From Hygrocybe punicea (lineage: Eukaryota > Basidiomycota > Agaricomycetes > Agaricales > Hygrophoraceae), in contig OY744466.1 in assembly GCA_963556145.1 (NCBI GenBank), positions 2,914,001 to 2,978,000 of the forward strand: 64,000 nucleotides of DNA, given 5' to 3'. The notes under the pieces are model-generated. The model worked only from the letters and a program-made list of their open reading frames with translations. It did not search any database and was not told where the DNA came from. Below, in pieces: positions 30,129 to 52,000 of the stretch (position 1 is the stretch's first letter; each line of letters starts with the position of its first letter). A program made the translations under genes and the position numbers.

Positions 30129-31407
30129 AACTAGTGAATTCATGATCAGTGAATGCTTCATCCCATGATTCCAGTTCACTTTTCAGGTTATGACCAGATC
30201 TCCATGGTTTGAACAGAGTGAGCATTGTGATGCAATAGTATTCTCTGTCTCCTCTATCACGTCTGGGCAATGAACCACCAACAAAGTTTGGAACAACATG
30301 CTGCTTCTTTTCACTGAATTCTATGCAGTGTGTTTCATACAATGGGTGATCTTCTAGAAAAAGCTTGGTATCTTCTTGAACCAGCTCAGTGCTATCAGAC
30401 TCATTGTCCTCTGAATCACATTCTATGAAAGTGTCATTATCTTTGATGTTAAGATCATCAAATTCTATGCTTAAGTCATTACTGGTAGATACATTAGATT
30501 TCAAAGTCTTTGTATGAGTTGCAGTTTGTGGCTCAGATTCCAAGACATCTAACTCATCATCACTGTTTATTTCATCATGAGGTTTTTGAATGTTTCTCTT
30601 GACTCTTTCTGCACCCTGCACCCATTCATATAAATTCATGTCTTCATAATGAGTTGGTCTGTAAATATAGTCATGCACAGCAGATAGTCCTATGAATTTT
30701 CCCTTTTGATTGTGCAGTACAACTTTTTCAGAGTCAACTTGCATGTCATCATTTTCATCTGGATTCCAAGCTTTCTGGACTTCTCTCACATAGTTTCTCC
30801 AGTAAACAGGAATGAATTTGTGTCTAGTATAATGGTCAGGGTGACCAAGCAGATACATGGAAGCCATTGGACCACCAATTTCAAGTTTTGCAGTTAAAGC
30901 ATTGATGATCTGGGTGATGAGTTTTCTAGCTTTGTCTTTTCTTTTCATTGACCCTCCAAGCATTTCTGAGTTTCTGTCAAACACACTTCTAATGGTATCA
31001 AATATGCTATATGTTTTCAATCCAGGTTTTGTAATATAGTCAGAAATATATGCTACAATAGCTTTGATTGCAGTACCAGAAAGAAGACTTGTAATATCAG
31101 AATTGCAGCGAAGTAGAAATGTCACAAGTGGTGTCAATGTATTGATCCATGCTTCACCCTTGTTCATATTCAATGCACCAGTTTTTGGGTCTACTTGTGT
31201 TGATTCAAACACAGGTCTGGGAAATCTAGCTTTGCATTTACCATGTTTGTTCATGCAACTGGGTCTGTCTTTTCTCTGGACTTTCTCATTGTTAGAACTA
31301 TTTCTGCCACAATTATGAACATTGGAGCGTAAAATCAAATGATCAACAGTGTTTGAAAATCTGTCCCACCATGAATTGACCTGTTTGCAACTATTACAAA
31401 TGTTGTT
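30129..31407 (-). pseudogene. Hel-2 transposase, N-terminal part: Rep two-tyrosine region
   Basis: The minus-strand coding sequence starts within the segment between the HUH and two-tyrosine motifs. It includes RKDRPSCMNKHGKCKARFPRP, the YISDYITKPG two-tyrosine motif and the acidic linker, ending HEFTS where A3 is inserted (30,128). The upstream HUH region is lost because a family-B' element begins at 31,408. It is about 95 percent identical to Hel-1 by eye. No stop interrupts the segment. Confidence 0.9.
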
Positions 31408-33370
31408 ACGAGTTCTTCCATTTATGGAAGAATCGTTCTTATCAGTCCAGGATACAGCGCAGTTCGTCAGTAATTAAATAAATAAATAAATAAATTAATT
31501 GATTAATGTTTGAAATCGACCATAGAGCCAAATTTTGCATTGCTGACCGTTTCTTTTTGAAAAAATTCATGAATAAACTAGATTTTTCGAATTTTGTCCT
31601 CAAATATTGTCAGGAATATAGGATTTATCTTGAGGTCATAAGAACTCAAAGACCATTACAATGGATAAGAAAAATAATTTGTATGACGCGGAATTTGAGC
31701 GAAAAAGGCAGTTGTCACACTGAGTAACAGGTGAGTTGCCCCCCCCTCCTCGAATTTTTTTGGTTCATCTTCAGTCAGATACCACTGACTTATGTAGGGG
31801 CAGGCCCAAAACGATTCCGGCACCCCGTTTCCGACTAAAACGACGAGTCTGGGCGAGGGGAACGGCCACACACGGAATTGGTAAGTCACCCCCCCTTGAT
31901 ACATTTTTGTTCACCTTCACCCGAATACAGCCTGTCCCGCCCCGTTTTCGACCACCCCTGGCCATTCTTCACTCCCCGCTCCTCGTTCGTGTTGAATACG
32001 AGCGACCTGGGGGTCTCAGGCCGTCGCGTTCCAGCTCTCTGCCCAATCTCAAGCACCCACCCTTTTTCATCCACCAGGACACCCTTTCCCTCCCCGTTTT
32101 CGACCACCCCCAGCCAGTCTCCACCCCCCGCACCTCGTTCCCATTGCAAACAAACACCCGGGCGGTCTCACGACCGCACGTTCCAGCTCTCTGCCCAGCC
32201 AGCACCACCCCGTTTTCAACCACCAAATCACCCCGTCCCGCCCCGTTTTCGACCACCACCGGCCAGTCTCCACCCCCCACAACTCATCCCCATTGAGAAC
32301 GAGCAGTCGAGGGGTGGCAGGACCTCGCGTTCCGGCTTTCTGCGCAACCACTGCCATACCACATTTTCATCCACCAAATCACCCCATTCCGCCCAGTCTT
32401 CGATCACTCCCAACCAGTCTACACCCCCAGCACCTCGTTCCCTTTGAAAACGAGCAACTGGGGGGTGTCAGTACCTCGCGTTCCGGCTGTCTGGCCAACC
32501 ACCACCAACCCCCCTTTTCAACTACCAGGATGCCCCTCATGCCCCGTTTTCAACCACCTACGGCCACTCTACACCCCCCATGCTTCATTTCCATTGAAAA
32601 CGAGCGACCAGGGGGTCTCAAGACCTAGGGTTCCGGCTGTCTGCGCTACCACCACCACCACCCGGTTTTCACTCACCAGGACACCCCTTCCCGCCCCGTT
32701 TTCGACCACCCCCGGCTGGTACATGCCCCCCGCGACTCGTTTCCGTTGAAAACGAGAGGCCGGGGGGGTCCGAATCCGTCGCGTTTAATTAATTGATTAA
32801 TGTTTGTAATCAACTATAGAGCCAAATTCTGCATTTCTGCTCTTTTCTTTTTGAAAAAAATCACAAATAAACTAGATTTTTCGAATTTTGTCCACAAATA
32901 TTTTCAGGAATACAGGATTTATCTTGAGGTCATAAGAACTCACAAAATGCTCCAATGGACGAGAAAAAGTATTTGTATCACACGAATTTGAGCGAAAAAG
33001 GCAGTTGTCACGCTCAGTCACATGTGAGTTGCCCCATTTTTTTTGGTTCACTTTCGGTCGGATACCACTGACTTAGGTAGGGGCAGGCCCCAAACGATTC
33101 CGGCACCCCGTTTCCGACCAAAATGACGTCTCGGTAAGGGGAACGGCTGCGCACAGAATCTGTGCCCCCTTGATATTTTTTTTCTCTCTTTTGCACAGGT
33201 ACAATTTACTTAGGTTCACACAGGCTTGAAACGATTCCGGCACCCCATTTCCGACTAAAACAACGAGTCTAGGCGAGGGGAACGGCCACACACGGAACAA
33301 CCTCAAGCACCCCGCATTTCCATCCACCAGGACGCCCCACCCCACCCCATCCTGTTTGCGACCACCCGGC
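31408..33370 (+). mobile_element. Family-B' element, 5' part, partly duplicated
   Basis: The 5' hairpin (ACGAGTTCTTCCATTTATGG with its complement) starts at 31,408 after TGTT, inside Hel-2. It is followed by an (AAAT)n/ATTA tract. The segment from about 31,495 to 31,880 is repeated at 32,788-33,300 with a tandem array between, so the element contains an internal duplication or a second copy. I could not find its 3' end. It may end before the gene at 33,520. Confidence 0.6.
31900..32785. repeat. GC-rich tandem array 4
   Basis: About seven units are the reverse-complement counterpart of array 1 (CGTTTTCGACCACC, CACCTCGTTC, AACGAGCG...GGGGGTCTCA). As in the other elements it sits just inside the 5' region of its host element. 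Open frames on both strands are repeat artefacts. Confidence 0.8.
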
Positions 33371-33519
33371 TAGTCTACACCCCCGTGTTGCATAAGTTAT
33401 AGCAGTTCTTAACATTCAAGTTAACAGAAATGCACCCATGTTCATATAGATTAAAAATATGTACAAAAAATTTGAAAAGATGACGGTTTCAAGAAGAAAA
33501 AAATTCAAGCAGGCTGATC
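33371..33519. other. Short spacer between the transposon nest and the first gene island
   Basis: AT-rich sequence after the last array unit. It is probably the 3' untranslated region of the minus-strand gene ending at 33,520. Confidence 0.4.
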
Positions 33520-34713
33520 TTAGTTATTATTGACGGCATCTTCAACCGCATTCTCGTCATCGTCATCCTCGTCATCAGTGAAAGCCATTCCCCTTTTTCT
33601 AATCTTTGAGGATACCTCCTGTTGAAGACGTTGGGTCTTCAACAACGTTTTTGATGCCTCCTTAACCAAGCCAGCCCAGATATCAGTCAAAATATGCAAG
33701 GGTAGTTAGCCTACATACCTGGGCAAACCTATCATCGATGAGAGCTAAGGTGTGAAGTACGATTCCAAGTTTGAAGGTTTTATCATCCTTGGCAGAAAAT
33801 GCACGAAATGACACTCGAACATCCACTATCACGCCTGGAAAAAAACTGGTCGGTGCTATACGTCCATATCTACACATTTTGACCCGTGAGTTTTTCTCGG
33901 TAGAGTCAATATCATATGCTCACTTGGTTTTGTTCTCAGGCGTTATCTGTCTTGTGAAGTAACCAACATTGTTGGAGGCAACGTGCAAGTATCGGCTTTG
34001 ATCGACTGAGGCTAAAACTCCGTCAGGATCCACAAGAGGATCAAAGGGAACGACATTTGATCGGTTGGCAAATTTGGCACTGGTGAAGTATCTGTTGTCT
34101 GCCTCAATAGTTTTGTAACCCGCAAAAGTTCCAGGCATCCAGGGATGTAGTTTGGAAAGACGAACGTCTTTGGAAAATATGGAGTGGATAGCTTGGATGC
34201 CATCCAGTGCGAGGTCGAACTGAGGGGAATTCAGCCCTGTCAATACAACATGCTGCCGGAGAAATTTGATGCTGGACCCCTTGCTACCAATAATCTCAAG
34301 ATAAACTTCAGATCTTCGCATATTGGCTAGTACTCACCTTGGAAGTCGGTGAATTGGAGGTAAGTTACTCTCTACAATAATTCCAGTGAGACGAAAGACA
34401 ACTTCCTCCATCTCACCGCCATCTATATCTTGGACCAGTTCATAGTGCCCTGTTTCTTGATTGTGTTGAGGCTTCGCTTTCAAATATAGACCGTTTTCCT
34501 AGTATATTGTTGGCAATTTAACCAAGAAAATATTCGTCGGAATACATGCCTTATTAAATACACCCAGATACTTCTGGCGAAGTTTTCCCTCATATGCCTC
34601 AGTAGAGAGCGTTTCGAGTACCTTAGCTTTTATTGAGGAGCATATGAGCTGTAATAACTGTAGCTCATAAGAGTTCTCTTACCAGCTGCAGTATACTGAT
34701 AGAATTGATTCAT
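33520..34713 (-). CDS. Unknown 302-aa protein with acidic tail; paralog of 63,007-64,000
   Basis: Six exons give one uninterrupted frame: complement of 34,713-34,683, 34,626-34,550, 34,498-34,338, 34,271-33,924, 33,869-33,719 and 33,660-33,520. All junctions have an AG acceptor. The second intron has a GC donor (GCATGT). The product starts MNQFYQYTAA. Its conserved core (VLTGLN...WMPGTF...ADNRYFTS...VVPFDPLVDPDGVLASVD...VGYFTRQ, then VIVDVRVSFRAF...LALIDDRFAQ) closely follows the second copy at the window end. It finishes with a basic stretch and a Glu/Asp tail (DDEDDDDENAVED). No catalytic motif or membrane segment is evident. I recognise it only as a repeated Agaricomycete-type hypothetical protein. 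The preserved splicing and frame argue that it is, or recently was, functional. It is divergent from the gene at 35,169 across a 455-bp spacer. Confidence 0.8.
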
Positions 34714-35168
34714 CGTAGTTGGTTGCTGGTAGAATTCAAAGAGGATAACTTGTGTACGGTATATTAAGATTAGTAGTTCTTGGCTGTTTCTGATGCAAGT
34801 GTCAGAAATCTAACTATATTCAGGTAAACCGTCCTGTTTGTGTCTTAGTGTTGCCGGTGTTTTGGTGTTCCGTACTGCCGGTGTTGGCGTTCGGGGTGTT
34901 TGGATGTTTGGATGTCCAGGTATTTGGATGTTCTGATATTGAGAGTGACATCATTGTGTCTTTTGTGGGCAAATTATCTATTGCATTTGATATTTATGGC
35001 TTCTTACCGAGGTAACAAGGCACAAAAAATAACACAGAACAGAATGTAATTTTCTTTTCTAGATTCTAATATATGAGAAAGGTGTTCCTGATTCATACCG
35101 TTAATGTCGACGAATATCAGGTTTTGTTGGAACACCTTTTTTTCTTCGTGTTTGTCCTTCTTACCAAC
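34714..35168. promoter_or_regulatory. Divergent intergenic region
   Basis: A 455-bp spacer separates two oppositely oriented start codons, so it should hold both promoters. Around 34,855-34,945 are imperfect repeats of GTGTTTGGATGTTTGGATG and GTTGGTGTT type. No confident TATA box was assigned. Confidence 0.4.
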
Positions 35169-37199
35169 ATGCCCCCGAAAAAGCGTTCCAGTGTTGGGTC
35201 TTCTCCACCTGCTGTATTCATCTTCCCTTTATTCAGCTCCCCAATTCACTTATCTTTGTACTGGTGTAGCAGGCAAGGCAGTACTCATGCTCGAAAAAAA
35301 AAGCCGGTGTATGTTTACAGCGACATCGAGGAGATGTGGGTGCTTCTTTGTTACTTGAAACAGTCTGATTTCTGATGTCTCACCCAGTGATGGCGAAAGT
35401 GAGGAGGCCACACAGTGAGTATGGTTTATCTGCAATTTGACCGATTTATTTAACTCACTTGAATGATTTATTAGAGAGGATAAAACTCCCTCACCGATTC
35501 CCAAGCCGAAGGGATCAGCTAAGCGGTTTGTAATCATTTTTGATCTAGTGGAATGACTTGTCTTATTATTATGCGTTACACAGGGGCATCTCAACCACCA
35601 AGAGTACTTCTCGTTCTGTGAAAAAAGCTCGAGTTGCTTCTCCAGAAATCTCCCAAGAAGAAGACATGCTGTATGTGACTTTGCATCATTTCGACCGTTG
35701 AATGATTGATGTTGAAAGATACTTCAATAGTTCATCAAAGCCCCAAACAAAGTATTGCTCACCAGTGTTCCACACACCTTACCCGTCACTAATACGTCAG
35801 TTGGTCCAACAGGTCTCTTCAAAAGGCGTCTTCTCAAAAGGTCTTTCATACAAGAGCCGATTCCCCTGAAGAGGATGTTTTTCGGTAAAAGACAGTCCTT
35901 AATTTGAGAAGCATCCATTCATCTCATGCTTACTAGTTCGTCCCCATCTAAGAAAGTCAAGAAAGAGGGGGAAGGAATGGTATATTTTGATGACTTTCCT
36001 GAATCGTAGGTGTTTTCCGACTTGCATTATTATATCATAAATCTCACATTTTACTCTGCTAGCCGAAGCTTCGTCAAGTCCGGTGCTGGTCCTGTCGAAT
36101 GTGAAGTTCTCTTTTCAGAACTAATGGACCCCATGTTGAAGGACACATATAGGAATCTCCCTGCTCTTCGGTGAGCATCAACCGTTTTGTTTTTGTATTG
36201 TTTTTATGATTGACTGTGCTGGATTTAGCAAAGGGACTCTGGTCACTGCCAATGCTGGTATTGATCCCATTGAACCATTTTTGCTTAGCAACATTCCAAC
36301 AATCTTTCCCTCAGCAAATATGAAGTATGTCTCTTGCTTACTTTGATCATGAGCTGTGGTTCAAACTGTAACTGCGTACCTAGGCTTCTTTTCGAGGCCA
36401 TCACCTTTACTAGGTCCGGTGTGTTCATGAATCCGTCCAGAGCATCCCCACATGTTGTCAAGACCAACCCAGTATCGGAAAGTGCACGATCTGTGGAGTA
36501 TGCTAGCCAGGCTGGCTCATACGGATTCAATCCTTATATCGTTTTTACCTCCGTTTTGCTTGTGACCAGTTCCAACTTGACATCTGAACCTGTTGGGATT
36601 TTCCGGCAGATCAGCGGACTGATGTGCACTCAGGAGTGGGAGAGGTTCTGCGCCTTTTTCTGCATGGTATTCAAGGTTCCTGAGCTGAGGGCTCAAATAT
36701 TTGAGGGTTCGGTGGTGATTAGCACTCGTGCTAAACAAAAAGACAGGGATGACGGTAAGTACCAGTCACATCCTATTGCATTCGAGATCTTCTAATAACT
36801 TAGTCATTGTTCAGCTGGATCTACAGGAAATAACATTGCGAAACTACTGGCCAGAAAGAAATCAGCCACCAATCAGTCTCCGGTGAAAGCCATGTCATCT
36901 AATAGTAGGACAGTGAAAGGTGCATTGAACTTCGAGGACCAAGGTGAGTAAAATTCGATTGGTTAGTTTTCGATGGTCTGAGGAAGTTGCCAGTTCCGGT
37001 ATATGACGGCATGAATGGCATGGTGAATTTTACCAGGCTCGATCACCTTCCGTCTGACTTGAAGTTGTGGGAGGACGACTTGGTGGGAAAGATTTGTCTG
37101 GTTGGGTACATGGCGAATAGCTGGATCCCCAAGGACAATGTGACCAAGCAGCTCTCCCTAAATATCCAGTGGGCCATAGTTTTAGCCAAGGAGGAGTAG
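35169..37199 (+). CDS. Unknown multi-exon protein with basic, Ser-rich N terminus
   Basis: At least ten short introns with GT...AG borders (for example GTGAGT at about 35,412, GTATGT at 35,670, GTGAGC at 36,171, GTAAGT at 36,756 and GTGAGT at 36,943) can be removed to give a continuous frame ending at TAG 37,197. The N terminus (MPPKKRSS..., then KKKPVYVYSDIEE, KRGISTTKSTSRSVKKARV, SPEISQEED) is basic, Ser-rich and NLS-like. A conserved-looking middle follows (LLFEAITFTRSGVFMNPSRA...GFNPYIVFTSVLLVTS...GIFRQISGLMCTQEWERFCAFFCMVF). The C terminus has PVYDG...LDHLPSDLKLWEDDLVGKICLVGYMANSW and ends SLNIQWAIVLAKEE. I know of similar hypothetical proteins in Agaricomycetes but no function. The exact junction after exon 1 (35,213 or earlier) is uncertain. 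Confidence 0.7.
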
Positions 37200-37450
37200 A
37201 GCCGTCAGCTTCGGTGAAATTTTTTTTTACATGATTATTCTGAATCTGTAGGGTTGTTTGAAAACCCAATATACCGTTTTGTTGCCTGGTTTTGAACACA
37301 AGTTCAGCTTGTTTGTTAATGACCGAACTTGCATGGGTGAAAAAGTTTTTCCATGCCTTACTTGAGTTTTTTACCGTCCTTGTGAAATTTTTTTCCACAC
37401 ATTACTTTAATTCGTTACGAAGTTCCAAAACACATAAACAGCTTGTCGTT
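37200..37450. other. Convergent intergenic spacer
   Basis: The 251 bp between two convergent stop codons is probably shared 3' untranslated sequence. Nothing else was recognised. Confidence 0.5.
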
Positions 37451-38837
37451 CTACTGCCCCAGCAGTTCTTTAAGAGTACTAAACAGTCCAAGTCCCATTT
37501 CCCATCTAGTTGCGCCTTCTTTCTCTAACTCAGCCCTAGCCCACTTTTTCGAAGCCAGAAATGCAGTAACACTCTGGAACCCATACTCCACCCATCTAAA
37601 CAAGCCCCCTGCCGTGTACTGTGTGAAGGACATCCTTGTTTCTCCTGATTGAATTGAGGTGTTGGAGTGGCGGAGGACGGCGGAAGGAATAATGGCGGTG
37701 GTCCCAGCGGGAAACTCGATAACCATCTTCAAATCCCAAAGGATGAGATGGCCCCCAAGTGTCGGATCGAAGTCGCCCAGTGGGGTGATGGAGCACATCC
37801 CAAAAGACAAATTCTTGAAGTCGATGTGGTCGAAGCATACCGTCTGTGGTCCGAAATTGAACGTGCTGGTTGACCATATGCTGTTGTCGAATGTCCTTGC
37901 CAACTCGGGATACCTCTTGTACAGTGCTCCCATTTTTTCCTTGTAATATGAATACAACTTTGGCATCCACGTCGAAAATGCTCCTGATGCAAATCCTGCA
38001 AATCCCCTAATTGCAGGGTGATTAATGAGCATCATGAGGATTTCGCTATCCTTAGCGCTATTGCAAAGGTTCCCAGGCATCTACTCAGGGAAGGAATCAG
38101 TAGATGAATCGGCAATACAAAAATGGAGTTTGCCTTCTGTCCCCCCCCATATGATGCCCCGTGGCTTAGCACATAGAAAATGCCACGTCTATGACTCTCT
38201 TGGGTGACTGAGAAGCTAGCTAACGTCCTAGCATGGGCCATGGCTTCCGCAGCGTCTCGATGCATCGTCTGACCTAGCTCACCAGTAATGGGAATGAGAC
38301 TTACTTTCCGTCCCAATGGTGTAGGGTAAATTTGAATATGGAGTCGGAACCCACCATTTCCTCCAATGTAAAGGTCCTATTGTACCCATCCACGTTGACC
38401 ATGGTGTAGCCGATTTTTGTAACTGATACTGCATCAACGTCAAGGTCGAGTTGGGCAGTGACTTTGTTGGCCTCCTTGACGTGTTTTTTGGTGGTGGAAG
38501 GACGGACAGTGTAATCACCAAAGGAACGACTACTCCGTTCTTGCTGCCATTTCATTTGTCGTTTTTGTTTACTTCTCAGCTTTCGATATTCGTTTACGGA
38601 TTTCGCAGGTGGCTGACGAGAAATGGGGGTCGCAGTGGATGATGTGGGTGTCTGATGTTCATCGGAGTTGATATCAACATCGGAATCGTGATCAGAAGGC
38701 GCAGGGGTGTCAGGTTGGTCAGTTTGACATATGGATTGGAAGGGGTAGTCCTCTGTGTTGTCCTCCTGGTTGCTGATTTCGGATTGGACCGCATTGCCCA
38801 GTAATTGTTCAAAATTAAAAGAATTATTATTCGCCAT
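37451..38837 (-). CDS. TET/JBP-family 2OG-Fe(II) dioxygenase
   Basis: Enzymes of this family oxidise 5-methylcytosine (or thymine) in DNA using 2-oxoglutarate and Fe(II). The minus-strand product starts MANNNSFNFEQ, has an acidic, Pro/Ser-rich N terminus and a basic patch (RKLRSKQKRQMKWQ), and ends in a compact catalytic domain. Visible family marks are SHGASYGGGQ, TFNFGPQTVCFDHIDFKN (the HxD iron pair), GDFDPTLGGHLILWDLKMV, FPAGTTAIIPSAVLRHSN (distal His) and ETRMSFTQYTAGGLFRW (2OG-binding Arg). One intron with a GC donor (GCAAAC...TGAGTAG) joins GGGQK to MPGNL near 38,095. The frame changes near 38,305 between LHHWDGK and the continuation VSLIPITGELG, through either an unresolved intron or a one-base indel, so activity is unproven. 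The family call rests on recalled motifs. Confidence 0.75.
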
Positions 38838-39208
38838 GATGGCCTGAGTCTGACAGATCAAATTCAGCAACTAGTTAGCTAACCCCACTGAAATATATAT
38901 TAATGTTTACCATTGAACGGGTTTGCATGGTGTTAGTTCAGCGGTCCAGCTTGAACACTCGAAAAATATATATGTCACATGACCATCAATTGGTGACACG
39001 TTGACGGTTGACTCGTGCCCACTATCGCGACCATGAAATGACGATAACAGTAACGACAATGATGCCGAGGACAATGAGGGCAAGCACAACAGTGACAACG
39101 ACGACCACCACTACCTCAAAATACTACGACACCATGGCCACCACAAAAACGATGACTCTCCTTCCTCTACCCCCTCCCCTCGCCCTCTCTCCCTCGCCCT
39201 CCATCTTC

Positions 39209-39442
39209 CTCTCCCTCTCCCTCTCCCTCTCCCTCTCCCTCTCCCTCTCCCTCTCCCTCTCCCTCTCCCTCTCCCTCTCCCTCTCCCTCTCCCTCTCCCT
39301 CTCCCTCTCCCTCTCCCTCTCCCTCTCCCTCTCCCTCTCCCTCTCCCTCTCCCTCTCCCTCTCCCTCTCCCTCTCCCTCTCCCTCTCCCTCTCCCTCTCC
39401 CTCTCCCTCTCCCTCTCCCTCTCCCTCTCCCTCTCCCTCTCC
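39209..39442. repeat. (CTCCCT)n hexanucleotide microsatellite
   Basis: About 39 almost perfect copies of the hexamer, with purine/pyrimidine strand asymmetry. All three minus-strand frames (Arg-Gly, Arg-Glu and Gly-Glu repeats) and the plus-strand Ser-Leu frame are open because of the repeat and are not genes. Flanking sequence to 39,540 is a degenerate CT-rich tail. Confidence 0.97.
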
Positions 39443-39847
39443 CTTCTCCCTTTCCCTCTCCATCTTTCTCCCACTCTCCCACTCTCCCCCTCTCTTCTTT
39501 TGCTAATCTCATTCACCATCTCCTTAATTTTTATTATGTTTTAATACTTAATTATCAATTTGTACACGAAAAAAATGACACGGACGATGACTGTGACTAA
39601 GAACTCACCATCGATATTCCGAGTCAGACTGCACCCTCTGTAACCTCACGAACACAGCGCCAATGTCAATCGACATGGCTGTGCACATTCGCGAGGATAG
39701 ATGGGTTGCAAGCTGGCATTACAGTTCTCAGCGTGACTCCCTGTCATCGGCGCGTTGACATTGGCAAGGGCGTGGCGTGTGTGCCACAGCTGTGCAGGGT
39801 TAGGCCTGCACCCCAAGACACCTGTTGCATCAACATTGATGAGGTCC

Positions 39848-40110
39848 GACGACAACCCGGGCTGAAGTCTTTGATGGGTCCAGCGAGACTGCGTTCAAAA
39901 TTAAGTTCACTTTCACTGGGTGCCCCATTTTCAGTTTGCGGACAAGTCTCAAGGAAGATCCGACAAAGTCCCGGTCTCAAGTCTTCGAAGGGTTCAGAGA
40001 GACTGCCCTATTGTTTTTTGGGTGCCCATCTGCAGTCTACCAACAGTTCTCAAGGGAGGTCCGACAAAGTCCCGGTCTCGAGTCTTCGAAGGGTCCAGAA
40101 AGACTGTCCG
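39848..40110 (+). repeat. ~100-bp tandem repeat
   Basis: Two good units and one partial unit contain GACAAAGTCCCGGTCTC followed by AAGTCTTCGAAGGGT and AGAGAGACTG or a variant. Confidence 0.8.
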
Positions 40111-40119
40111 CAACAGCAG

Positions 40120-40500
40120 ACATTCAAAGGGTGGAAGCGAATCGTGCACAGACTGCACGATTACGACTCCCGCGGCGCAGATCGCCCCCTCCGGTGAAAA
40201 ACGTTGGGGACTGGAGGAGGGCCATGCACAGACTGCACATCCACGCCCTCCATGGCCCAGACGGCCATTCCCCACTTCAATTTAGCAGGGTGGAAACGAA
40301 TCGTGCACAGACTGCATGATTACGGCTCCCGTGGCGCAGATCGCCCCCTCCAGTGGAAAACGCTGGGGACTGGAGGAGGGCTGTGCACAGACTGCACGTC
40401 CACGCCCTCCATGGCCCAGATGGCCAATCCCCCGGTCAGAAGGGTGGAAGCGGATTGCACACAGACTGTGCAATCACGACTTCCACGGCCCAGACGGCCA
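40120..40500 (+). repeat. ~157-bp tandem repeat
   Basis: Two full units and a partial third, starting at about 40,126, 40,283 and 40,440, share GGGTGGAAGCGAATCGTGCA, GCGCAGATCGCCCCCTCC and CCACGCCCTCCATGGCCC. The internal GTGCACAGACTGCAC is a near-palindrome. Open frames across it are repeat artefacts. Confidence 0.82.
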
Positions 40501-40862
40501 CCCTTCTATGCTACAAAGCTAGGAAACATATTAAAACTATCAAAACTATGTGTAAAGTACTGGGACTGACCTTTGTGGTGGGATTAAAAGAGCAACCAAA
40601 GCGTGTCAACCAAAGCGCGTTGACGCGTCAAACAATGATTAGTAATATTTTCCCACGGTTAAAACAAAATTTGTAAACATAAACAATTACTTCTTGTGGT
40701 GGGGGCTGGACTAAAATGATTATAATTAGCACTGGATTAGTAGTAATATTTTCCCTCGGTTCAAAAAAGTTTTTTAAAGAATTAAATTATTATAATTAAA
40801 GATCATTAAACCGATCCCATTTGATAACTCGTTGTTCTGTTCACCAAAATTGATACTTGAGA

Positions 40863-42488
40863 ATGCCTCGTACTAAACAAACTGCCAAGTTGTCAGTCGG
40901 TGGTATTGCACCCCGAAGAACTGCTCAAACCGAATTGGTGTCGACCCCTGCAACGCCGGCGGTGCGTCTGATCGTGTCCTCCGATGCCTCAACTCCGTTG
41001 CCTCCCCCACCGTCTGATGACAAAAATGATGTCCGTACTTACTTTTGGCGTTTTTTAAGTGGAAGCTGACCTCGTAATAGTTTTGTTACATTTGCCTGAA
41101 TGGCGGATGCCTCCTGGTCTGTGATTACTGCCCACGTTCGGTTTGCGACGGATGTCTTTCCATCCCCACCTATTTGGATACCGCGTCCACAGTCTTTATC
41201 TGCCCAACGTGTCATGAGTTGAATTTCAAAGGCCCTCATCATCACCCGTACTATGTAGGTGTGTCAATAATTCTCGACGACTTCAACTCTAATCATGATT
41301 CATTACTGACTTAGGCAATGTACACGTTGAATGGCCCAGCATACGTCGGTAATTCCCTCAACCCCACCGCCCATGTACCTGCCACGACATCTCCGGCTCA
41401 AATTGCCCATTCCTTTCAAATGCATGCCCATTCCCAAGTCTCCAACGATACCGTCCTGATCCTGCACTTTGTGCTGTCCGGGACGTCTCACGCTGGTACA
41501 CCCGCTAACGTTCTTGCTGCGTACATGTCAAGCTTTCTGGGAGAGTCAACTCTCGAGTTCGCCGAGGTTGAGTTCGATCTTTCGGACGACTCCAACTTCG
41601 AGCCGCATGCGAAACAAGTTTCCAGCCTTTGTCGCAAGTACCTGTATGTTTATAATTATCACATACTATACTGCTTCATCTGCTGAATTAAATACCAGAC
41701 ACCATGCATCTCAACTTGTTGTTTTTATAACGACTCATTCCCATGACAACACCGGTGATCTGTTCATTGGTCCAAATCTGTGTGCCTCCGTAACCGAAGT
41801 GAGTCTTTTTTTTTTTGTGCTCCATTTTTCTAATTACTTGCATTAAACGTTAGTTTTTCAATCTCCTGATCCCCCGGAGGGTCGTAGGCTTTTTTTGTGA
41901 GCAGGATGTCACCGTTTGGGTGATGTCATGTGGTGCTTTGGTCAAAATGCCTGAGAGCTACCAGGACTTGGCCGGGGTGGTGAAACAGTACGTTTTTTCA
42001 TCTTCGGTTTCAACTAAACTAAGTGCTTTATTTTAAGTTTTAAATTTAACAATTTGGTTGCCTTCACGGCAACCAAATTTCAACCGATTCTCACCATCAA
42101 CTTGATCATCAGCGTGGCGCAAAGGAACCTTGTGGAGCAGTTCTCATTTGAACGTGCGATTCAGGACACGGTGCCGACAGTTTTTTCAATTGGCCACCAT
42201 ACTGATATCGTATATATTCAATATTCTGGCGACGTTCTCAAGGGTGCTCGTTATACCTGGTGCCACCCCAAAATCCGCCCATGGGGACAACAACTCCCCA
42301 CTCAATGCTCCAAATGTGGCCGAATTCGATCTTGGTCTTTTTCTCGACAACGGTCGGATATAGTGGTGACGTGTGATAGGTGTCGATATCATTTAACTTT
42401 CGAACACCCAGGGGGTGAGCTTAACTGGTTGGGGGGCGAATTCTTCGGTGGACGTTGGTTGATACGTGATATCCCATTTACCACGTAG
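40863..42488 (+). CDS. Histone H3-tail mimic fused to a PHD finger and a caspase-like His/Cys region
   Basis: Six exons (40,863-41,030; 41,081-41,254; 41,315-41,643; 41,699-41,798; 41,854-41,987; 42,038-42,488) with introns of 50-60 bp give an intact 451-aa frame. Residues 1-19, MPRTKQTAKLSVGGIAPRR, match the H3 N terminus: after Met, R2 T3 K4 Q5 T6 A7, S10, G12 G13 and A15 P16 R17 are identical, while H3 A1, K9 and K14 are replaced by Pro, Leu and Ile. Residues 57-101 form a PHD-type zinc finger (C58/C61, C70/C73, C78/C81, C97/C100; Cys in place of the usual His). Residues ~155-290 have LVVFITTHSHD (H237) and VTVWVMSCGALV (C283), resembling the His and Cys motifs of clan CD (caspase/CHAT-like) peptidases. 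A C-terminal ribbon has CSKC and CDRC. PHD fingers commonly bind the H3 tail, so self-recognition or histone competition is possible (inference). The first donor (GTCCGT) is weak. Confidence 0.85.
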
Positions 42489-42543
42489 TTATATTTTTAC
42501 CTTTCATGTGCATTTGTTTGTCTCAGCAACTTTGATAGTTGCT

Positions 42544-43036
42544 ATGCCCAAATCCCAGATTCAAGCAAGTCAAGCAGAACTTCAGACAGGTGAGCCAGGT
42601 TCTGGGACTAAAAAAAAATCGTATGCATGTATGAAGAAATGAATCATTTCCACCCTATATACCTATTCTAGTAGTACGTTAATTCCATATTATACTTCAC
42701 TGCATGACCTGAACTAGCAAGAGATATCGGATAGAACCAAAGATATTTCATCACGTGATGTTCAAATTCTTTTTCTCTCCAAACCAAATTCCGATGCTGT
42801 CCAAACGTCTCGTCTCAACATCACTGCTGCTGCTTCTTGCACTAACCATTCTATTCCAAATGAATAATCTAGAGGTCCTATTTGACTTGTATTCAACACA
42901 TCTGAATTACTAAACTACTAAATTATGTTAGTTCTCGACCGCCGAAGTTCATACAGATGGAAAATTCGGTAAAATCTTGGCTGGAGCTAGCCAATTGCTT
43001 TGGAAGGGTTTCGGTAAGTAAAGCCAACTACTTCTA
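42544..43036 (+). pseudogene. Possible start of a gene truncated by the Hel-3 nest
   Basis: An ATG at 42,544 opens MPKSQIQASQAELQT and runs into a GTGAGC donor. A possible later exon (about 42,932-43,013, reading FSTAEVHTDGKFGKILAGAS and on) ends at GTAAGT. The phases of these two do not fit directly, so at least one more small exon is needed. Transposon sequence begins soon after 43,085, so the remainder is missing. Evidence is weak. Confidence 0.3.
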
Positions 43037-43109
43037 CATCTATTCAATCAATTGAGGCCTTTCATCCTATGGAATGGTTAGGTATTACTTGTCAGGGTTG
43101 GAGCGGATT

Positions 43110-43270
43110 CAGCCTGTTCAAACCATTGGGTTTGTCCTTCTCTCAGCCCAGCCAGTTGGGTTTGTATTTTTCTCCGCCCAGACGGTTGGGTTTGTGTTTA
43201 TCTCCACCCAGACAGTTGGGTTTGTATTTTTCTCTGCCCAGGCAGTTGGGTTTGTTATTATCTCAGCATG
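43110..43270 (+). repeat. 30-bp tandem repeat upstream of Hel-3
   Basis: About four and a half units of GCCCAG(A/G)C(A/G)GTTGGGTTTG plus TATTTTTCTC. A frame through it encodes QLGLYFSPPR-like repeats and is open into the Hel-3 frame, but the likely transposase start is the later ATG at 43,426. Confidence 0.85.
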
Positions 43271-43425
43271 AAATATTCTGTGCATTGTTCTCTTTACCCA
43301 GACCATCTAGTGTATTGTCTTCTCTGCCTCAACAGTTGAATCAATCTCCATACGTCTTGTTATGGATCTGCACAGGTATCCTAACCTGGCATTTTCCTAC
43401 ATTGATAATATTCCATCTCAGGAAG

Positions 43426-46400
43426 ATGGTAATGTCATACAAGTTCCATGCTACAGCAGTATTACCACAAAATATTGATATAATCAAGGCTATGTATAGC
43501 ACATGTGTAGGAGGTGGCAAGAAACCTATCTTTACTTTATCTGAACTTATCTCAAAAGATTCCCAATACAAACCAGGAAACTACACATTTAAATCATATG
43601 TATCTGAAAGGAATTTAATTCATCTGGATTTTTCAAACCCGTTTCTTGTGGCATTAGATGTCCCACTTCAAACCTTAGTAAGTAAATTAACCATTGCAGA
43701 TCTAAAAATTATTGCCAGTTATCATTCTATTTATTTACCTGCAAAGATGAAGTATACCAATATTCAAACAAAAATTGTCAATCACAAATGCATTGATTGT
43801 TCCTCTTATCTTTCTATCTTTGAATTTATTGACGATATAGAAATAGCAAATAAAAAGAGAATGGCTAACATTGAGGCTGTAAAGCTGTCACACAATAAAA
43901 ATATAGACAAATACTGTAAAGAACATCTCCATGCAGTTAAAAAATACAATCAAAATAATATTGATAAACATCAGCAGACAAATCAAGCTGCTGTAAAAAG
44001 ATATAATTTCCAACATCCACAGATTCGTCAGCAGCAAAATTTGATTGACTGCTGTTAAAATTTATCATTCAAGACATACAGAGCAGCATAAGCAGCAAAA
44101 TTTAGCTGCAGTTAAAAATTATCACTTGAAACATCTAGAAAGACATCAACACCAAAATTTAGCCACCGTTGAAAGAGATTTTTCTGATGATTCAGAGAAC
44201 CATAAAATGTTTAATCAAAAAGCAGTTCAATCTTTTCGTATCAGTAATCCAGACCAATGTAAACAGCAAAATCAAATTGCAGCACAGTCTTATAGGGACA
44301 ACATAAAATTTCCACCTATACCTCCTTCTCAATCCTTGCAACATACCATTATTTCAAATTTTTGCATGGAAAGTAGTCCTAATAAATTTTCAGAAGCTGG
44401 TTGTGCAGTTTGTGGACGACTAACAGCAATTCAAGGTTTATCACAACTATCTTCACTTGATTTGGATTTAACTCTGTTACTACAAGCTTCTGCCACACAA
44501 CAAGAACGTTTTTCATCTGATGATCCAGTTCAAAGCATGGATAAGCCCATTTTGATTGAAAACTTAGACAATATATGCAAAACATGTCACAAGTCATTAA
44601 CCAAAGGAAAACAACCCCTGCATGCATTGGCAAATGGTCTGTGGATTGGTGATGTGCCAACAGCTTTACAAAACCTATCATATGCTGAACAGTTGATGAT
44701 TGCAAGGGTTAGACACAATAGATGCATTGTCAGAGTCTCTTCAGGCATGCACAAGATGAGAGCCAATGTAATTACATTTGCAATTACATTTGCAAATCCA
44801 GTTCCCAAACTATATGATATTTTGCCACCTCCAGCTGATGAATTAGATGAAGTTCTTGCCTTTATTTACACAGGTCCATGCAAACCAACCAAGTCTGACT
44901 TTGAAAGAACACCTCTGCTTGTTAGGAGAAACAAAGTAGCAATAGCGTTGAATTGGCTAAAGTTAAACCACTGTGATTACTTTGACTTGGAAATATCACA
45001 AGAGAATTTGAATCAATATCCTGAAAATGATATACCAGTGGTTGTTGATTACCGCCAGTCATTCACCAACAAAAGTCAAGAATCAACTGCAGTACATGAT
45101 ATGGAAACTGAAGAAGGAACGAAGACTGGCAAATGTCCATTTGTTGTTCATGGCTTGACTGGTGAGGAATATTCAACTAAGAGTGTCAAAGCATTAAAGG
45201 CTATTGCTTTGAAACATTTAAAGAGCAACCACATGGTGCTTGCTATCGGACATGACAAAGATCCACAATCAATCTATGGCAACCCACAGTTATTTCCACA
45301 AATGATGCCTTGGCTGTTTCCATATGGACTTGGTGGTATTGGAAATAATATAAAGCAAGGATCTTTATCTGATATTGCACATAAAAGACATTTGTTAATG
45401 TATTATGACAAGTGCTTTCAGAGAGACCCACACTTTCCATTGATTGCATTTAATCATGAACAAATCAAACAGGCAACTACAGGAGGGTACTTGTTGGCTG
45501 ATAAAGCAAAATTTGATCAGATATCTCAGAGACTAATGGATCTTGATGTTGGTGTTCTTAATTACATATCCAGAAAGATGGAAGAGGGTGAACATGTCAA
45601 ACCTGACACCGATGAGGAAAAGCTTTGTTTCCAGGTGATCAAGGACATTGACCATGTTGGAAGTCATGTACAAGGATCATTGACAAATAAGAAATATATC
45701 ACAGGGTGCGCAGTAGCATACCATGTCACACAGTATCTTGAAAGTACTTGACAAGTATACTAAATATCATTACCATAACATTCAACATGGTATTGTAACA
45801 GTATTCAGACATAAACTACAATACTTGTGCTCAAATTCAAAGATACTGTGTCAATACTTTTAAGATACTGTTTCAGTACTTTTATTATAATAAAAGTATC
45901 CTAAAAGTATTGACACAGTATCTTAAATCCACAATATGGCAATAGTACTATACTATTTCACACTGTATCTTGAAAGGATTCAAAAGGTATCCTAGTAGTG
46001 AAAGTGGCACAACTTCCTTACTAGTTTAATACTTTTATTCATCTTAGGCTGTAAGTATTCTATCCGAACTATACGGTACTTTGCTGTAGATACAGTAAAA
46101 GTAGTGAAACAAAAGGCTTGATGTTATTGAAAAGGTATAAGTCTCATTTGCCTTCATACCTTCAGATGAATTTGAGCACAAGTATTGTAGTTTATGTCTG
46201 AATACTGTTACAATACCATGTTGAATGTTACGGTAATGATATTTAGTATACTTGTCAAGTACTTTCAAGATACTGTGTGACATGGTATGCTACTGTGCAC
46301 CCTGTGTATGAGAAATGAAATCTGGGCACTGATGTCATTCTTTGGGGCCCCATCTTGGTTTATCACCTTTTCACCTGCAGATATCATGCATCCACTATGT

Positions 46401-49093
46401 TTATATTTTGCTGACACCAAAGAGAAGTTTTCCCCAAACTTGCGAGACTATGATGAGAGATACAGACTTATTGCCCAAAATCCTGTGGCTGGTGCAAGAT
46501 TCTTTCATTTTATGGTCAAGTTGTTTATCAAACATGTACTTGGAGTTGGCTCAAATCACTCTGGATTTTATGGAGATACAAATGCATATTATGGTGCTGT
46601 TGAACAGCAAGGACGATTAACTCTTCATATGCATATGATGTTATGGCTCAAAGCATGCTTGTCGCCACAAGAGATCAGAGATAGAATCATGGATCCCAAC
46701 TCAGACTTCCAAAAAAGATTTGTTGAATATCTTGAAAGTGTTCATATTGGTGAATTTATGACTGGCACAATGGATGAAGTAACAGCCAAAGTCAATGCTC
46801 AATCCATGCAAAAAGGTTATAAAGATCCAACTCAAACCTTGCCTGAAACACCACCACCTCTGTGCAATGACAAACATAAAGACATGGATGATCAATCTGA
46901 ATGCATTGAATGCAAGAATGTTGAGTCATGGTGGAATCGATTCAGAAACACTGTGGATGATTTGATACTTCACTCCAATGTTCATAATTGTGGCAGATAC
47001 AAGTCTAATGCTGAGAAAGTAAATAGAAAAGACAGACCCACCTGCATGAACAAACATGGAAAATGCAAAGCTAGATTTCCAAGACCATTGTTTGAATCCA
47101 CTCAAGTTGATCCAAAGACTGGTGCACTGAATGTGAAAAAGGGTGAAGCATGGATTAACACATTAACCCCACTTGTAACATATCTATTACGCTACAACAC
47201 TGATATCACAAGTCTTCTATCTGGCACAGCAATCAAGGCGATTGTAGCATACATATCTGACTATATAACTAAACCAGGACTAAAAACTTATAGCATATTT
47301 GATACTATCAAAAGTGTATTTGACAGAAATTCTGAGATGCTTGGTGGATCAATGCAGAGAAAAGAAAAAGCTAGAAAATTAATCACACAAATTATCAATA
47401 CATTAACAGCCAAACTGGAAATAGGTGGACCCATGTCAGCTCTATATTTGCTGGGCAATCCTGATCATTACACTAGCCACAAGTTTATTCCTGTGTATTG
47501 GAAAAATTATGTCAGAGAAGTGTTAAATACTTGGAAAACAGATGGTGATACAGAAATGTCAAGTGAGCCAGACAGAGTAGTCCTCCGAAATCAGCAAGGC
47601 ACTTTTGTTGGAACATCAATAGTGCATGATTACGTTTATAGACCTCAAAGGTTTCAGGATGTCAATCTATATGAATGGATTCAATGTGCCAAAAAAGTTA
47701 AAATCCATAGAAAAACAGTTCATGATGAAATTCACAGTGAAGATGAATTACTTTTAGAGCCAACATTACAAGATTCAGGTAATGATTGTGGTGTCAGAGC
47801 ATCACCTGCTAATCACTGTGAAACTGATGTTGATTCTGATGATCTCAACATTGATAAGGATAACACATTATTTGATCATGACAATGATTACACAGATGAA
47901 ACAGACAGTATGCATTCTGACAATGTAGAACACATATTGTTCCTGCAAGGTCATCGGATGCACTTTATGAAACACATTGCATTTACTTCAACGAACAATA
48001 TCATTTGGTTCCAAATTTCATTGGTGGTTCACTTCCCAGATGTGACAGAGGAGATAGAGAATATTATTGTACAACCATGTTAACTTTGTTCAAACCATGG
48101 AGATCTGGTCATGACCTGAAATTAGGGGACCAATCTTGGGATGAAGCTTTTGACACTCATGAATTTACAAAAAGACAAATACAAATAATAGACCATTTTA
48201 ATTTGAGATATGAATGCAATGATGCCAGAGATGACTTTTCAGCACAACTCAAGAAGGGTGAAATGTTACCAGATGGCACATGCCCACAGTTTATGACTGG
48301 AGACATGATCTCACATCTCGATGATGACTACAGTCAAAATGGTGAAGACATAGATTATGCAGCAGATGGTCAAGATGGTCAAGATGGAGAATATCATCTA
48401 AACAAATACACTGACCTTGGAAGTCATGGCAGATTGATCAAAGCACAAATGGAATCTACAGAAAATGTTGTTAGAAATGTGGGTTGGTTGGATGCCTGTC
48501 CAGAAGGCAATGTAGCAGTGAACATAAATCCACTTGATGTGGAAGTGCATAAGTCAGCATCTCAATGGAAATCTGCAGTTCAAGACAAAAGACAACAAAT
48601 TCTTGAAGAACGTAACCAGAATATTCCTTCAAAGTCACATAAACATGGCAAACAATATTCAGACCCCAATGAAAATAATGTGATGGTTGTTGACCAATCA
48701 TACTTTATGCACAATTTCAAGGCAGAGAATGCACACAGACAGGTGTTGATTGACACTACTGTTCAAACATTTCACTTGAATACAGAACAAGATAGGGCAT
48801 TCAGAATTATTGCAAACCATGCTTCATCTTGTAGTGAACAATTAAAAATGCATATTGGAGGCATGGCTGGTACTGGAAAATCACAAGTGATCAAAGCTGT
48901 TGTTGATTTTTTTAAAGCTGCAAATGAGTCTTACAAATTTGTTATCCTTGGTCCAACTGGAACATCAGCTGCATTACAGAATGGTTCCACATACCATTAC
49001 TTCTTAGGCATTAATCCAAACTCGTCTGGCAAAAATGAAGCCACCAACATTGCTCAGCTAAGGCCAGATTAGAAGGAGTTGACTACATATTCA
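43426..49093 (+). pseudogene. Hel-3: most complete N terminus of the rolling-circle transposase, decayed
   Basis: This copy shows the N-terminal region missing from the others. The start is MVMSYKFHATAV. A run of ~19-residue repeats follows (KYNQNNIDKHQQTNQAAVKRY and relatives), then a Cys-containing segment (CAVCGRL...CKTCHKSL...ANGLWIGDVP, a DUF6570-like pattern), then the Helitron-like N domain, HUH motif LTLHMHMMLWL near 46,620, YISDYITK near 47,255 and helicase Walker A GMAGTGKS near 48,865. Defects are a one-base frameshift near 44,045, a MITE at 45,700-46,306, a frameshift near 47,955 and truncation at 49,093 by the Hel-4 element before Walker B. It is more diverged from Hel-1/2/4 than they are from each other, so it is a separate subfamily. 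Confidence 0.88.
45700..46306. mobile_element. 607-bp MITE with 140-bp inverted ends
   Basis: The ends CACAGGGTGC.../...GCACCCTGTG are inverted over 140 bp (45,700-45,839 and 46,167-46,306) with about two mismatches. TAT is duplicated at 45,697-45,699 and 46,307-46,309. The homologous site in Hel-1 (near 5,720, AAATATATGAGAAATG) is the empty target. A second internal inverted repeat lies at about 45,840-45,925. There is no coding capacity. A 3-bp duplication and CACAG ends suggest a CACTA- or Harbinger-related source, undecided. Confidence 0.92.
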
Positions 49094-52000
49094 CTTGTTT
49101 AGTGGGCCAGTGCTGCGCATGGCATGAACGAGTTCTTTTTTCCCCCTCCTCACTTCTTTGCTGAATTAAGAAAATTGCATAAAGCATGTTACATATGGCA
49201 TAAGATACATGGCATGTGTTGCATATTGCATATTGATCTACTAAGCCCACCTCCCACCTCTGCAACATATAAATTAGTATAAAATAAAACTACATAAAGT
49301 GTCTTGAGTCTTCATCAACCTTCTCTCTACCCGCCATCTCCCCTGTGTTGCACCATCATGCAACACTCTCAGCCATGAAGCAATTGCTCAGGGAGCAACA
49401 GGTCAACTGCCAAACACAACTGCCCCCCAAACAGTGTGCTGACAATTAACTCACATTGGCTCAACCCTACTTCTCCATGACCCTGAATGCTACACAACAG
49501 ATGAACACATGAAGACAGCCGTGCTTGACCTCAAGGAGGATGCTCAAAGACTCTGAGCATAAATAGCTAGTACAAGGTTTCTATTTTTACAGTGTCTGAT
49601 ATCATGGTCTGAAAGTTGTGTAAGGACAGTGTCTCTGGAACAAGAGTTGCCTGTAATCATTCCATCATGATACCACACTTGTTTCTGTGCAGTAATAATA
49701 CGTGAGGTGAAATGATATTGACCATGATATACAATGCCTCTAAGTTCTAATGTCTTTGTGTAAGTCTCTGAAACAAATTCTAATCTATGACTGGTTTCAA
49801 TGGTTTTAAGTGGATACTCTAGAATCAGAATATGTGGTGCTTCATTATAAAATACAAGTTGTTTCATTCTGCTGTTGCAATCAGGACATCTTCTATTGGT
49901 TTTCTGTGACAAGGTATCAACCCACTTCATTGTAGACTGTTTAATTGTGTCATCAGCATGTAACACATAGCCTAGTCTGTCATCAATGGATTCTTCTGCA
50001 AAGTCACATTGAGAACATTCATGTTGAGAAGAGGTTACAATGTCATTGACTTTAAACAACTCCATAGCCAGATTGGCAACACTGATGCCCATTGTACCTC
50101 TAGGAAAGTCTGTAGGATTCATCTTATGTAGTGTAGTCCTAAGATGATCTCTTAGTTGTTCAAATGTTACATTTTTGTGCAACACCTTGGAAAAACCATG
50201 AGACAATGTGGTCAAATGATCATTCATGCTTCGGAATACTGTAGACCACTCTGCATGATTGTCTTTCCACAAGTGGAATATAATCACCAACAATGAGTCA
50301 TATGCACAGCTGTAGTCATTTCTATCCCAGATCAGTCTAGTTGGAGAGTTAATAACCTGTTGCTTGCTTGTGGATCCTTTGTTAACATGGCCTTTGGTGA
50401 TCCGAGGCCTTTTAGCTGCTGGTTCATTGTTTGTGTCAAGTGAATGTTTTTGGGTTGAACCAATAGCAACTGAGCCTTTTGCTGGAACAAATGAAGTTGC
50501 AATTACAGCTGCTTTCTGTTTTCCTTTGCCTTTTTCAACCAATTGCCATGGGCTATCAGGGATTTTACAAGCCAATATGAGTGGATCAGTTGGTGACCAT
50601 TTGATAGCAGTATCAGTTTTGGCAGGAACATAGTGAATTCCCTTCCACTGCTGAAAATTTTGAAGCATAACAGAGCGTGTACCAGCATCAATGTGATCAG
50701 ATAAAGCACCTTCATATCTCATCCTTGTAATCTCATCAAGCAATTCTAGTTCTCTAAATTCTTGTCTAAGATATCCAGAACAACCTCTAGTGATCACTTT
50801 GGTGTCAAAGCCTTGAATGATAACAGTTCCAGCAGCAGAAGCACTTCTAGACAATGAAGAATAATATGACATGTGGTTGAAGCAACTATTTAAATGGACA
50901 ACATTGAATGGACGAGTTTTTCCTTGAGCAGCATGAGCAGTCATTGCAAAGTTAGGAAGCACCCAGACTTGTTGTCTCTCAATGGATTCCTTCAGGTCAC
51001 TGGGAAATACACACTGAATTGTCTTGGTGTTTTTTACAATGGGCACCACATTGTCAGGAAGTCCTGGAATCTGCACCAGCTTTGGAGGTTTGTCCAGTTC
51101 AACAAATAAAGTGTCAAGTCCTCTTTTGCCATGACTTGCTTTCATTGACTGCCATCCAACAACAAATCCTTCTTGTCCTTTTGTAATGCAGAGTTCAGTG
51201 GCATCATTGTTGCGAAGCATCACAGGCATACCAAGACACAAAGAGAGTTTTCCAGCAAAGTTATCTGTTGCAGCATGTTGCACTTTCCATATCTCTCTTT
51301 GTGTATCAAAGTCTATGTCACTGGATTGATGTATAGCATTGGATTTGGACTTGCTTCTCACAGAATCCTTGTCTTTTCCCCACTTGTCAATGGAATAGAA
51401 GTTGGTCAAGTTCTGGTTGGTGTCAGAAGCAAATCTTTCACATCCAAGCTGGTTGATCTGATCCTTTTGTGAGTGAATGCCACATATGATAGGAATATTT
51501 CTAAACTTCTTAGAGGCTACATTAGGCTGGTCTGGACGTTTGCCTGCAATTCTGGTTCTCAAAAATTGAATATCATGTGCGGTACATTTGCCATAGCGCA
51601 TGTTGACAAGGGCAGTTCTGAACAATGCATCTTCAGTTGTTTGTGTCCTCTGTCTCATGTTTTTTCTTAGAATGACAACTGTGGTCACTTGATGCCAGAG
51701 TGCTTTTCCAATGGCAGTTTCCTGAGAGTGTGTGGTCAAGGCTGATGTGATCTGAGTGCCAACTGTTTCACTGTACAATGGTGCACCTCCAACTGGTGGT
51801 AACTGTGCAAAGTCTCCAGCAAATATCATGTTGATTCCACCAAATGGCATGTCATGAATGTTCAAAGCTTTAGCTAGTCTAGCACTGATTTTGTAGAGAT
51901 CATGACAAGACAGCATTGAGACTTCATCAATGAAAATATAGTCAACTCCTTCTAGTCTACCTTTTAGTTGAGCAATGCCCATTGCTTCATTTCTATTTGA

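Follow-up and report, generated by a model that had tools for sequence, protein, structure and literature searches.

A Helitron-associated gene pair of Hygrocybe punicea that combines a histone H3-like tail, a PHD-like finger and a TET/JBP-type dioxygenase

Most known histone mimics are viral proteins, pathogen effectors or certain host proteins. The PHD finger of UHRF1 reads both the ARTK start of histone H3 and the VRTK motif of PAF15, and DPPA3 targets the same finger and antagonises chromatin binding (PMC12704277). Fungal DNA transposons that carry a TET/JBP-type dioxygenase (TET+ transposons) include Helitrons of P. graminis, Agaricus bisporus and Pezizales, and Kojima has proposed that the transposon enzymes oxidise methylcytosine (PMC12730594). 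In mammals, a demethylation pathway that is controlled by TET and driven by DPPA3 has been described (PMC7686362). TET+ transposons, the PHD fingers of long interspersed nuclear elements (LINEs) and histone mimics are known separately, and the open-licence literature searched did not reveal an H3-like tail, a finger and a TET-type enzyme together in a single mobile gene pair. Here we describe such a gene pair in a stretch of 64,000 nucleotides from the basidiomycete Hygrocybe punicea (assembly GCA_963556145.1, contig OY744466.1, positions 2,914,001 to 2,978,000), which we call the window. One gene, the H3-mimic gene, encodes a protein in which a part resembling the H3 tail and a part resembling a reader of that tail are, as judged by sequence comparison, joined in a single chain; its divergent partner encodes a TET/JBP-type dioxygenase. 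The mimic had been spotted in an earlier sequence-only reading of this DNA, to which the present analysis adds that the gene is repeated and borne by a transposon, that it has a TET/JBP-type partner, and that its copies cluster on the chromosomes. The coordinates of all features are listed in Table 1.

The H3-mimic protein starts at position 40863 of the forward strand with MPRTKQTAKLSVGGIAPRR (M-P-R-T-K-Q-T-A-K-L-S-V-G-G-I-A-P-R-R). As the sequence-only reading had recognised, this is a near copy of the H3 tail, with R2 to A7, S10, G12, G13, A15, P16 and R17 retained, which amounts to 12 of the H3 residues 1 to 18. Among the 1299 ATG-opened frames of 18 codons in the window, this one included, the runner-up matches H3 at 5 of 18 residues, and this rules out a chance likeness. 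Throughout the genome, R-T-K-Q-T-A has 37 exact matches in the DNA as compared to two for the reversed pattern, which served as control; some of these matches lie in another repeat, and none of the three such places that were read starts with an ATG. The start at 40863 is supported by an upstream in-frame stop that just three codons separate from the ATG. An upstream in-frame stop and an A at position −3 were found in all nine copies checked, and an earlier in-frame ATG is absent from seven of these. The block of coding similarity between the window copy and the copies of subfamily B (see below) begins at 40862 for seven of the nine B loci compared, and further in for L027 and L028; the upstream repeats of the two are also partly alike. 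The six exons close in frame over 451 codons, exactly as had been claimed, and the five introns (50, 60, 55, 55 and 50 bp, all GT-AG) have positions that are common to the subfamilies. The span originally assigned to the protein (40863..41254), on the other hand, covers exons 1 and 2 only, the gene reaching to 42488.

The likeness to H3 is confined to the N terminus. The Pfam scan detected no histone family in the protein and no histone-fold core was found, and among the best 60 of 183 matches of a whole-protein profile, histone H3 was retrieved with E-values of 0.008 to 0.016 and met only within about residues 1 to 35. In three host H3 genes that were read, an intron separates G13 from K14, whereas the mimic continues at this point without an intron. 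Capture of the first exon from such a present-day host gene is therefore not supported as the origin of the tail, which may stem from an intronless or processed H3 gene or have arisen by convergence. Locus L029 is a host H3 gene with a canonical start, in which exon 2 (GKAPRKQLGIKTSSKQVEKQIGYKGVKKPHRF) belongs to an unusual H3 variant. A caspase-like middle domain, considered because of H-S-H and S-C-G motifs, found no support in Pfam or in sequence searches of the PDB. Outside this genome, a protein-database search that requires shared words of five residues returned one relative (P0001, 254 aa), which covers the C-terminal half and is uninformative on the N terminus, and no wider relatives were confirmed among the pattern matches in viral_contigs (26) and genome_contigs (262).

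The 92.2-Mb assembly (42 contigs) contains 29 matches to exon 1, including the window copy, and the start was read in all of them. Four subfamilies were distinguished: A with 10 copies (tail MPRTKQTAKLSVGGIAPRR), B with 12 (MPRTKQTAKNSTGGVVPRK), C with four (MPRTKQTAQKSTGGVAPRK) and D with three (MARMKATAKKVTGGI or MAQTKATAKKVTGGI), where each string is that of a single copy from which the fellow copies differ at few residues. A Met-started tail with 10 to 15 H3 matches in 18 residues is present in 26 of the 29 copies; two of the others, both in subfamily B, are frame-broken at the start, and one lacks the tail. Apart from R8 and K14, each of the H3 residues 1 to 18 is kept by one subfamily or more. 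Lys or Gln stands at position 8 and Ile or Val at position 14 in all four, K9 is present in C and D, A1 is present in D, and the subfamilies differ at K9, S10, T11 and A15. When one representative of each subfamily is aligned (four rows), R2, K4, T6, A7, G12, G13 and P16 are invariant, and some damaged copies deviate at R2, T3 or other positions. Six between-subfamily pairs of single copies gave for the tail 0.15 to 0.40 nonsynonymous (dN) and 0.68 to 2.3 synonymous (dS) substitutions per site, and a dN/dS of 0.13 to 0.35 that is a rough value, with 18 codons and dS near saturation. Drift of the tail without selection is unlikely, and the H3-like N terminus appears to be kept by selection, though it is not the most constrained part of the gene. 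In the whole-gene alignment of 28 loci, from which L046 was excluded because its tail is gone, eight are free of premature stops and have all GT-AG borders intact (L010, the window copy L011, L012, L014, L016, L023, L024 and L042); L019 and L020 keep the frame with a changed donor of intron 1. Changes by CpG transition number 98 of 378 in nine A copies and 188 of 296 in eleven B copies, with CpG positions making up 192 of 1699 and 166 of 1700 positions, respectively. The copies thus decay largely by CpG transition.

The finger that follows the tail has its cysteines at residues 58, 61, 70, 73, 78, 81, 97 and 100. A profile built from 14 finger sequences retrieved, among solved PHD fingers, those of PHF21A (E-value 2.1e-6) and CHD4 (2e-5), the other best relatives being TRIM66, TRIM24, TRIM33 and AIRE, with ZMYND8 and ZMYND11 also present. 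BHC80, AIRE-PHD1, CHD4 and TRIM24 are readers of unmodified H3K4 (PMC3471955), and it is this type of reader that the finger resembles most; binding of H3 is predicted from this resemblance. Weaker matches in the PDB, ranking after the H3K4me0 readers, include ATRX, NSD2, PHF2 and PHF8, so that the ranking as such is no proof of specificity. An acidic residue is present two positions before the first Cys in all four subfamilies (Asp in A, B and C, Glu in D). It aligns with the Asp of BHC80; D489 of BHC80 and D297 of AIRE touch the K4 amine (PMC3214078). Based on these data, several further claims made for this protein can be adjusted. The eight cysteines that had been assigned to a PHD-type finger at residues 57 to 101 are all there, but the fifth stands where the classical PHD finger has His. 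The reported loss of K14 applies to every subfamily, whereas that of K9 and A1 does not, as C keeps K9 and D keeps both. The proposal that losing K9 and K14 would favour 'active' marking is not supported, since two of the four subfamilies retain K9 and this type of finger should prefer unmethylated K4. The suggestion that the protein may bind itself or compete for readers of H3 is a possible one, because H3-tail mimicry and a PHD-type finger share one protein.

In the partner gene, the HxD...H...R core of 2-oxoglutarate/Fe(II) dioxygenases is recognisable, with H84, D86, H137 and R148 invariant in 35 aligned rows. The Pfam family Tet_JBP was matched by 15 of these 35 members at E-values up to 0.1 (best 8e-5). 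In the PDB sequence search, the dioxygenase profile met only three weak and unrelated chains, and the window exon met none. Alignment with VIA-align of the top 1000 chains from Foldseek revealed a TET-type fold in the predicted structure; oxidation of methylcytosine by the partner is a prediction only. The H3-mimic and dioxygenase genes are divergently paired in all four subfamilies. A CCCTCT array of about 52 units (39172-39484) lies between the two genes.

Two other genomic copies of the segment that contains the gene pair have left flanks that differ from that of the window copy, which places the left end of the element near 31405. The right end was not found, the window copy diverging from these two at 49093. 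Downstream of the pair, at 46308-49069, both Rep and PIF1 helicase were identified, as expected for a Helitron. DUF6570 sequence follows the mimic gene in 15 of 20 loci (fetched with about 10 kb). Rep matches of the class with 93-100% identity, 29 of which were used for the proximity count, occur downstream within 15 kb of 13 of the 29 copies (five A, seven B, one C and no D), and the C and D copies have no close Rep or helicase, with the exception of a single C copy that has one at 10 kb. Subfamilies A and B share about 72% identity in the H3-mimic gene and about 95% in the Rep region, which implies that the mimic and Rep modules had different histories; the pair may be true Helitron cargo, or it may ride along in these regions. 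The Helitron gene of the window copy is disrupted by a 607-bp inverted-repeat insertion (45700-46306) and by the departure at 49093. This insertion is CACTA/EnSpm-like, with long inverted termini (CACAGGGTGC...GCACCCTGTG) and a 3-bp TAT target duplication, and it is present in one other copy and missing from another.

All 29 mimic copies, which are spread over 12 contigs, lie no more than 0.5 Mb from the median position of the Rep matches on their own contig. The same distance holds for 94 of 106 Rep matches, partly by construction, and for 28 of 150 reverse-transcriptase domains. Both lists are lower bounds (Rep, 106 of 792 candidates scored; reverse transcriptase, 150 of 594), and two of 108 Rep matches had been dropped as fragments of others. 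None of 20000 uniform or reverse-transcriptase-sampled placements was as tight as the observed one, compared to 39 of 20000 Rep-sampled placements. Each of 13 large contigs has one Helitron-rich block, which suggests that these blocks are centromeres. A causal role of the mimic in the clustering is not supported: because the whole Rep family clusters alike, the mimic cannot be credited with it.

Table 1. Features of the H3-mimic gene, its divergent partner and the surrounding Helitron in the window.
Feature	Position	Strand	Remarks
H3-mimic gene	40863..42488	+	six exons, 451 codons + stop, five GT-AG introns
H3-mimic exons	40863-41030, 41081-41254, 41315-41643, 41699-41798, 41854-41987, 42038-42488	+	in-frame joining
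H3-like tail, residues 2-19	40866..40919	+	12/18 H3 matches; counterpart in four subfamilies
PHD-like Cys8 finger, residues 57-101	41081..41215	+	profile matches to H3K4me0-reader PHD fingers; Pfam PHD below cut-off
Last exon, C-terminal zinc-ribbon-like CxxC...CxxC	42038..42488	+	Zn_ribbon_IS1595 below cut-off, E 0.063
Dioxygenase catalytic exon (HxD...H...R)	37454..38077	-	TET/JBP-type
Dioxygenase first exon, ATG at 38837	38304..38837	-	putatively spliced to catalytic exon
Region between the divergent genes	38838..40862	.	CCCTCT array 39172-39484, 159-bp repeat 40128-40432
Segment common to two other genomic copies with different left flanks	31405..49093	.	
Helitron gene part, DUF6570	44045..45699	+	E 5.8e-41
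Helitron_like_N (Rep) part	46308..48080	+	E 4.6e-24
PIF1 helicase part	47921..49069	+	truncated near 49093, at the divergence from two other copies

The remainder of the window contains nested Helitron copies with Rep- or helicase-like frames at 5310-9859 (+), 12208-15831 (-), 30118-31473 (-) and 49547-52252 (-). The long frames at 9841-10512 (+) and 11249-12292 (-), located by the helicase, have in common a Cys/His-containing SNDYSCAYDSLLVILFNLW and are perhaps protease-like; the latter frame has no Pfam match. Those at 33923-34333 (-) and 63382-63750 (-) are similar to each other (...DPDGILASVD...), the first without a Pfam match, and three long adjacent open frames at 57610-62801 (+) likewise match no Pfam family.

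We tentatively propose, at somewhat less than an even chance, that the two genes form a transposon-borne pair that serves to operate in silenced chromatin or to escape from it. Once Met is removed, the chain would begin with P/A-R-T-K, and the tail would compete with the H3 of nucleosomes for modules that hold the N terminus of H3. Its targets could be host proteins of silencing or histone modification as well as the protein's own finger, within one molecule or between neighbours, the bound finger acting as a switch or a link in a chain. The finger would anchor the protein on chromatin that is unmethylated at H3K4, the partner would oxidise methylcytosine, and the two activities together would loosen the silencing of the element. 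UHRF1, the PHD finger of which is addressed by PAF15 and DPPA3, provides a working precedent. SRA-domain matches occur at three places of the host genome and matches to DNA methyltransferases at four. The fixed G12, G13 and P16 and the always hydrophobic position 14 hint at another reader that would bind more C-terminally in the tail. Several observations nevertheless weigh against this proposal. The finger is not of the C4HC3 type, as seven Cys ligands align and the fifth is Cys for His; its full-length matches to Pfam PHD reach 10.1-18.2 bits in the four subfamilies against a cut-off of 24, and its predicted structure, with a mean predicted local distance difference test score (pLDDT) of 46.8, is too poor to judge the pocket. 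The tail, for which dN/dS is only roughly estimated, is somewhat less constrained than the protein from residue 103 on (dN/dS 0.09-0.20). The dioxygenase exon in the window matches no Pfam family, seven of the 29 copies (six of them in subfamily B) have no match to the partner within 15 kb, and the chromosomal clustering is common to the whole Rep/helicase family, including its more diverged classes.

A bolder version, which we consider possible but rather doubtful, is that this is the first transposon-encoded H3 mimic and part of a two-gene kit, in which the TET-like enzyme acts on DNA methylation and the H3-tail protein on readers and writers of the H3 N terminus. The tail might then be a pseudosubstrate and the finger a switch opened by unmethylated H3. 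The pseudosubstrate idea is based on K14, which each of the four subfamilies replaces by Ile or Val with G13 and P16 unchanged, G-K-x-P being the context for acetyltransferases of the Gcn5 type. That the tail serves as a self-ligand only, filling its own PHD pocket as an off-switch or head-to-tail link until real H3 displaces it and fooling no host reader, seems unlikely to us: tail and H3K4me0-type finger do share one chain, and R2 and K4, with which fingers of this type make contact, are invariant in the aligned representatives while K9 and S10 vary, but G12, G13 and P16 are just as invariant, and the cited fingers read the first few residues of H3. A relic, or a function unrelated to mimicry such as a basic nuclear-localisation or nucleic-acid-binding stretch, would fit the somewhat weaker constraint on the tail and the variation at K9, S10, T11 and A15; we regard it as improbable, since a generic basic tail has no need of R-T-K-x-T-A and G-G-x-x-P, and since the H3 residues other than R8 and K14 all survive somewhere among the subfamilies. 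Also rather improbable is a targeting function, in which the finger would lead the element to, or keep it in, a type of chromatin near centromeres, with the tail merely tuning it. Such a role has been suggested for the PHD fingers of LINE ORF1 proteins (PMC4120745), and it would agree with the placement of all copies near the Helitron blocks, which most reverse-transcriptase domains do not share and uniform or reverse-transcriptase-sampled placements do not reproduce. However, the diverged Rep/helicase classes cluster there as well, Rep-sampled placements do equal the observed one at times, and the centromeric nature of the blocks is only suggested. An artefact of the gene model, with a true start further down or with wrong exons, is very improbable; one in-frame upstream ATG in each of two D copies checked would speak for it, against the upstream stops, the A at −3, the absence of earlier ATGs elsewhere, the start of the similarity block to subfamily B and the common intron positions.

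If the proposed pair of anti-silencing genes is real, selfish DNA would counter silencing at the level of both histones and DNA by means of a single gene pair, the role of fungal TET+ transposons could be tested on small purified parts, and the four subfamilies would offer a natural set of mutants from which to learn which H3 residues are important to the reader of the tail. The titles and abstract beginnings met in the searches of the open-licence literature report no transposon-encoded H3 mimic, and there is a real chance that a mobile element is here seen for the first time to encode a histone mimic. Proteins with a SNAG domain, such as Snail, have an H3-like N terminus that starts with Pro-Arg and binds LSD1; Pro-Arg replaces Ala1-Arg2 there as it does in the mimic, but the likeness to H3 is much shorter. 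PAF15 (VRTK) and DPPA3 likewise present a short H3-like stretch to an ARTK-reading PHD finger (PMC12704277). In contrast to PAF15 and DPPA3, the protein described here belongs to a transposon, matches H3 at 12 to 15 of 18 residues in most intact copies, and has a finger in the same chain. To our knowledge, PAF15 and DPPA3 are mammalian host proteins without a PHD finger of their own. With its best sequence relatives BHC80/PHF21A, AIRE, CHD4 and TRIM24, the finger shares the acidic residue two positions before the first Cys (PMC3471955, PMC3214078), but it differs from the H3K4me0 readers by the Cys at the fifth ligand and by the ligand-like tail on the same chain. LINE ORF1 proteins are also mobile-element-borne carriers of PHD fingers, but those elements are retrotransposons, and a histone mimic is not mentioned in the parts of their description consulted (PMC4120745). 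The Helitrons of Pleurotus are likewise fungal and contain extra genes, some of them expressed; in the main text on these captured genes the terms 'PHD' and 'histone' do not occur (PMC4289320). The TET+ fungal DNA transposons, Helitrons included, resemble the present element in carrying a TET/JBP-type dioxygenase of their own, whereas the main text of Kojima (2025) has no PHD or mimic terms (PMC12730594) and the enzyme of the present element has an H3-tail protein as its partner. A similar pairing of partners is found in the mammalian TET/DPPA3 pathway as described (PMC7686362).
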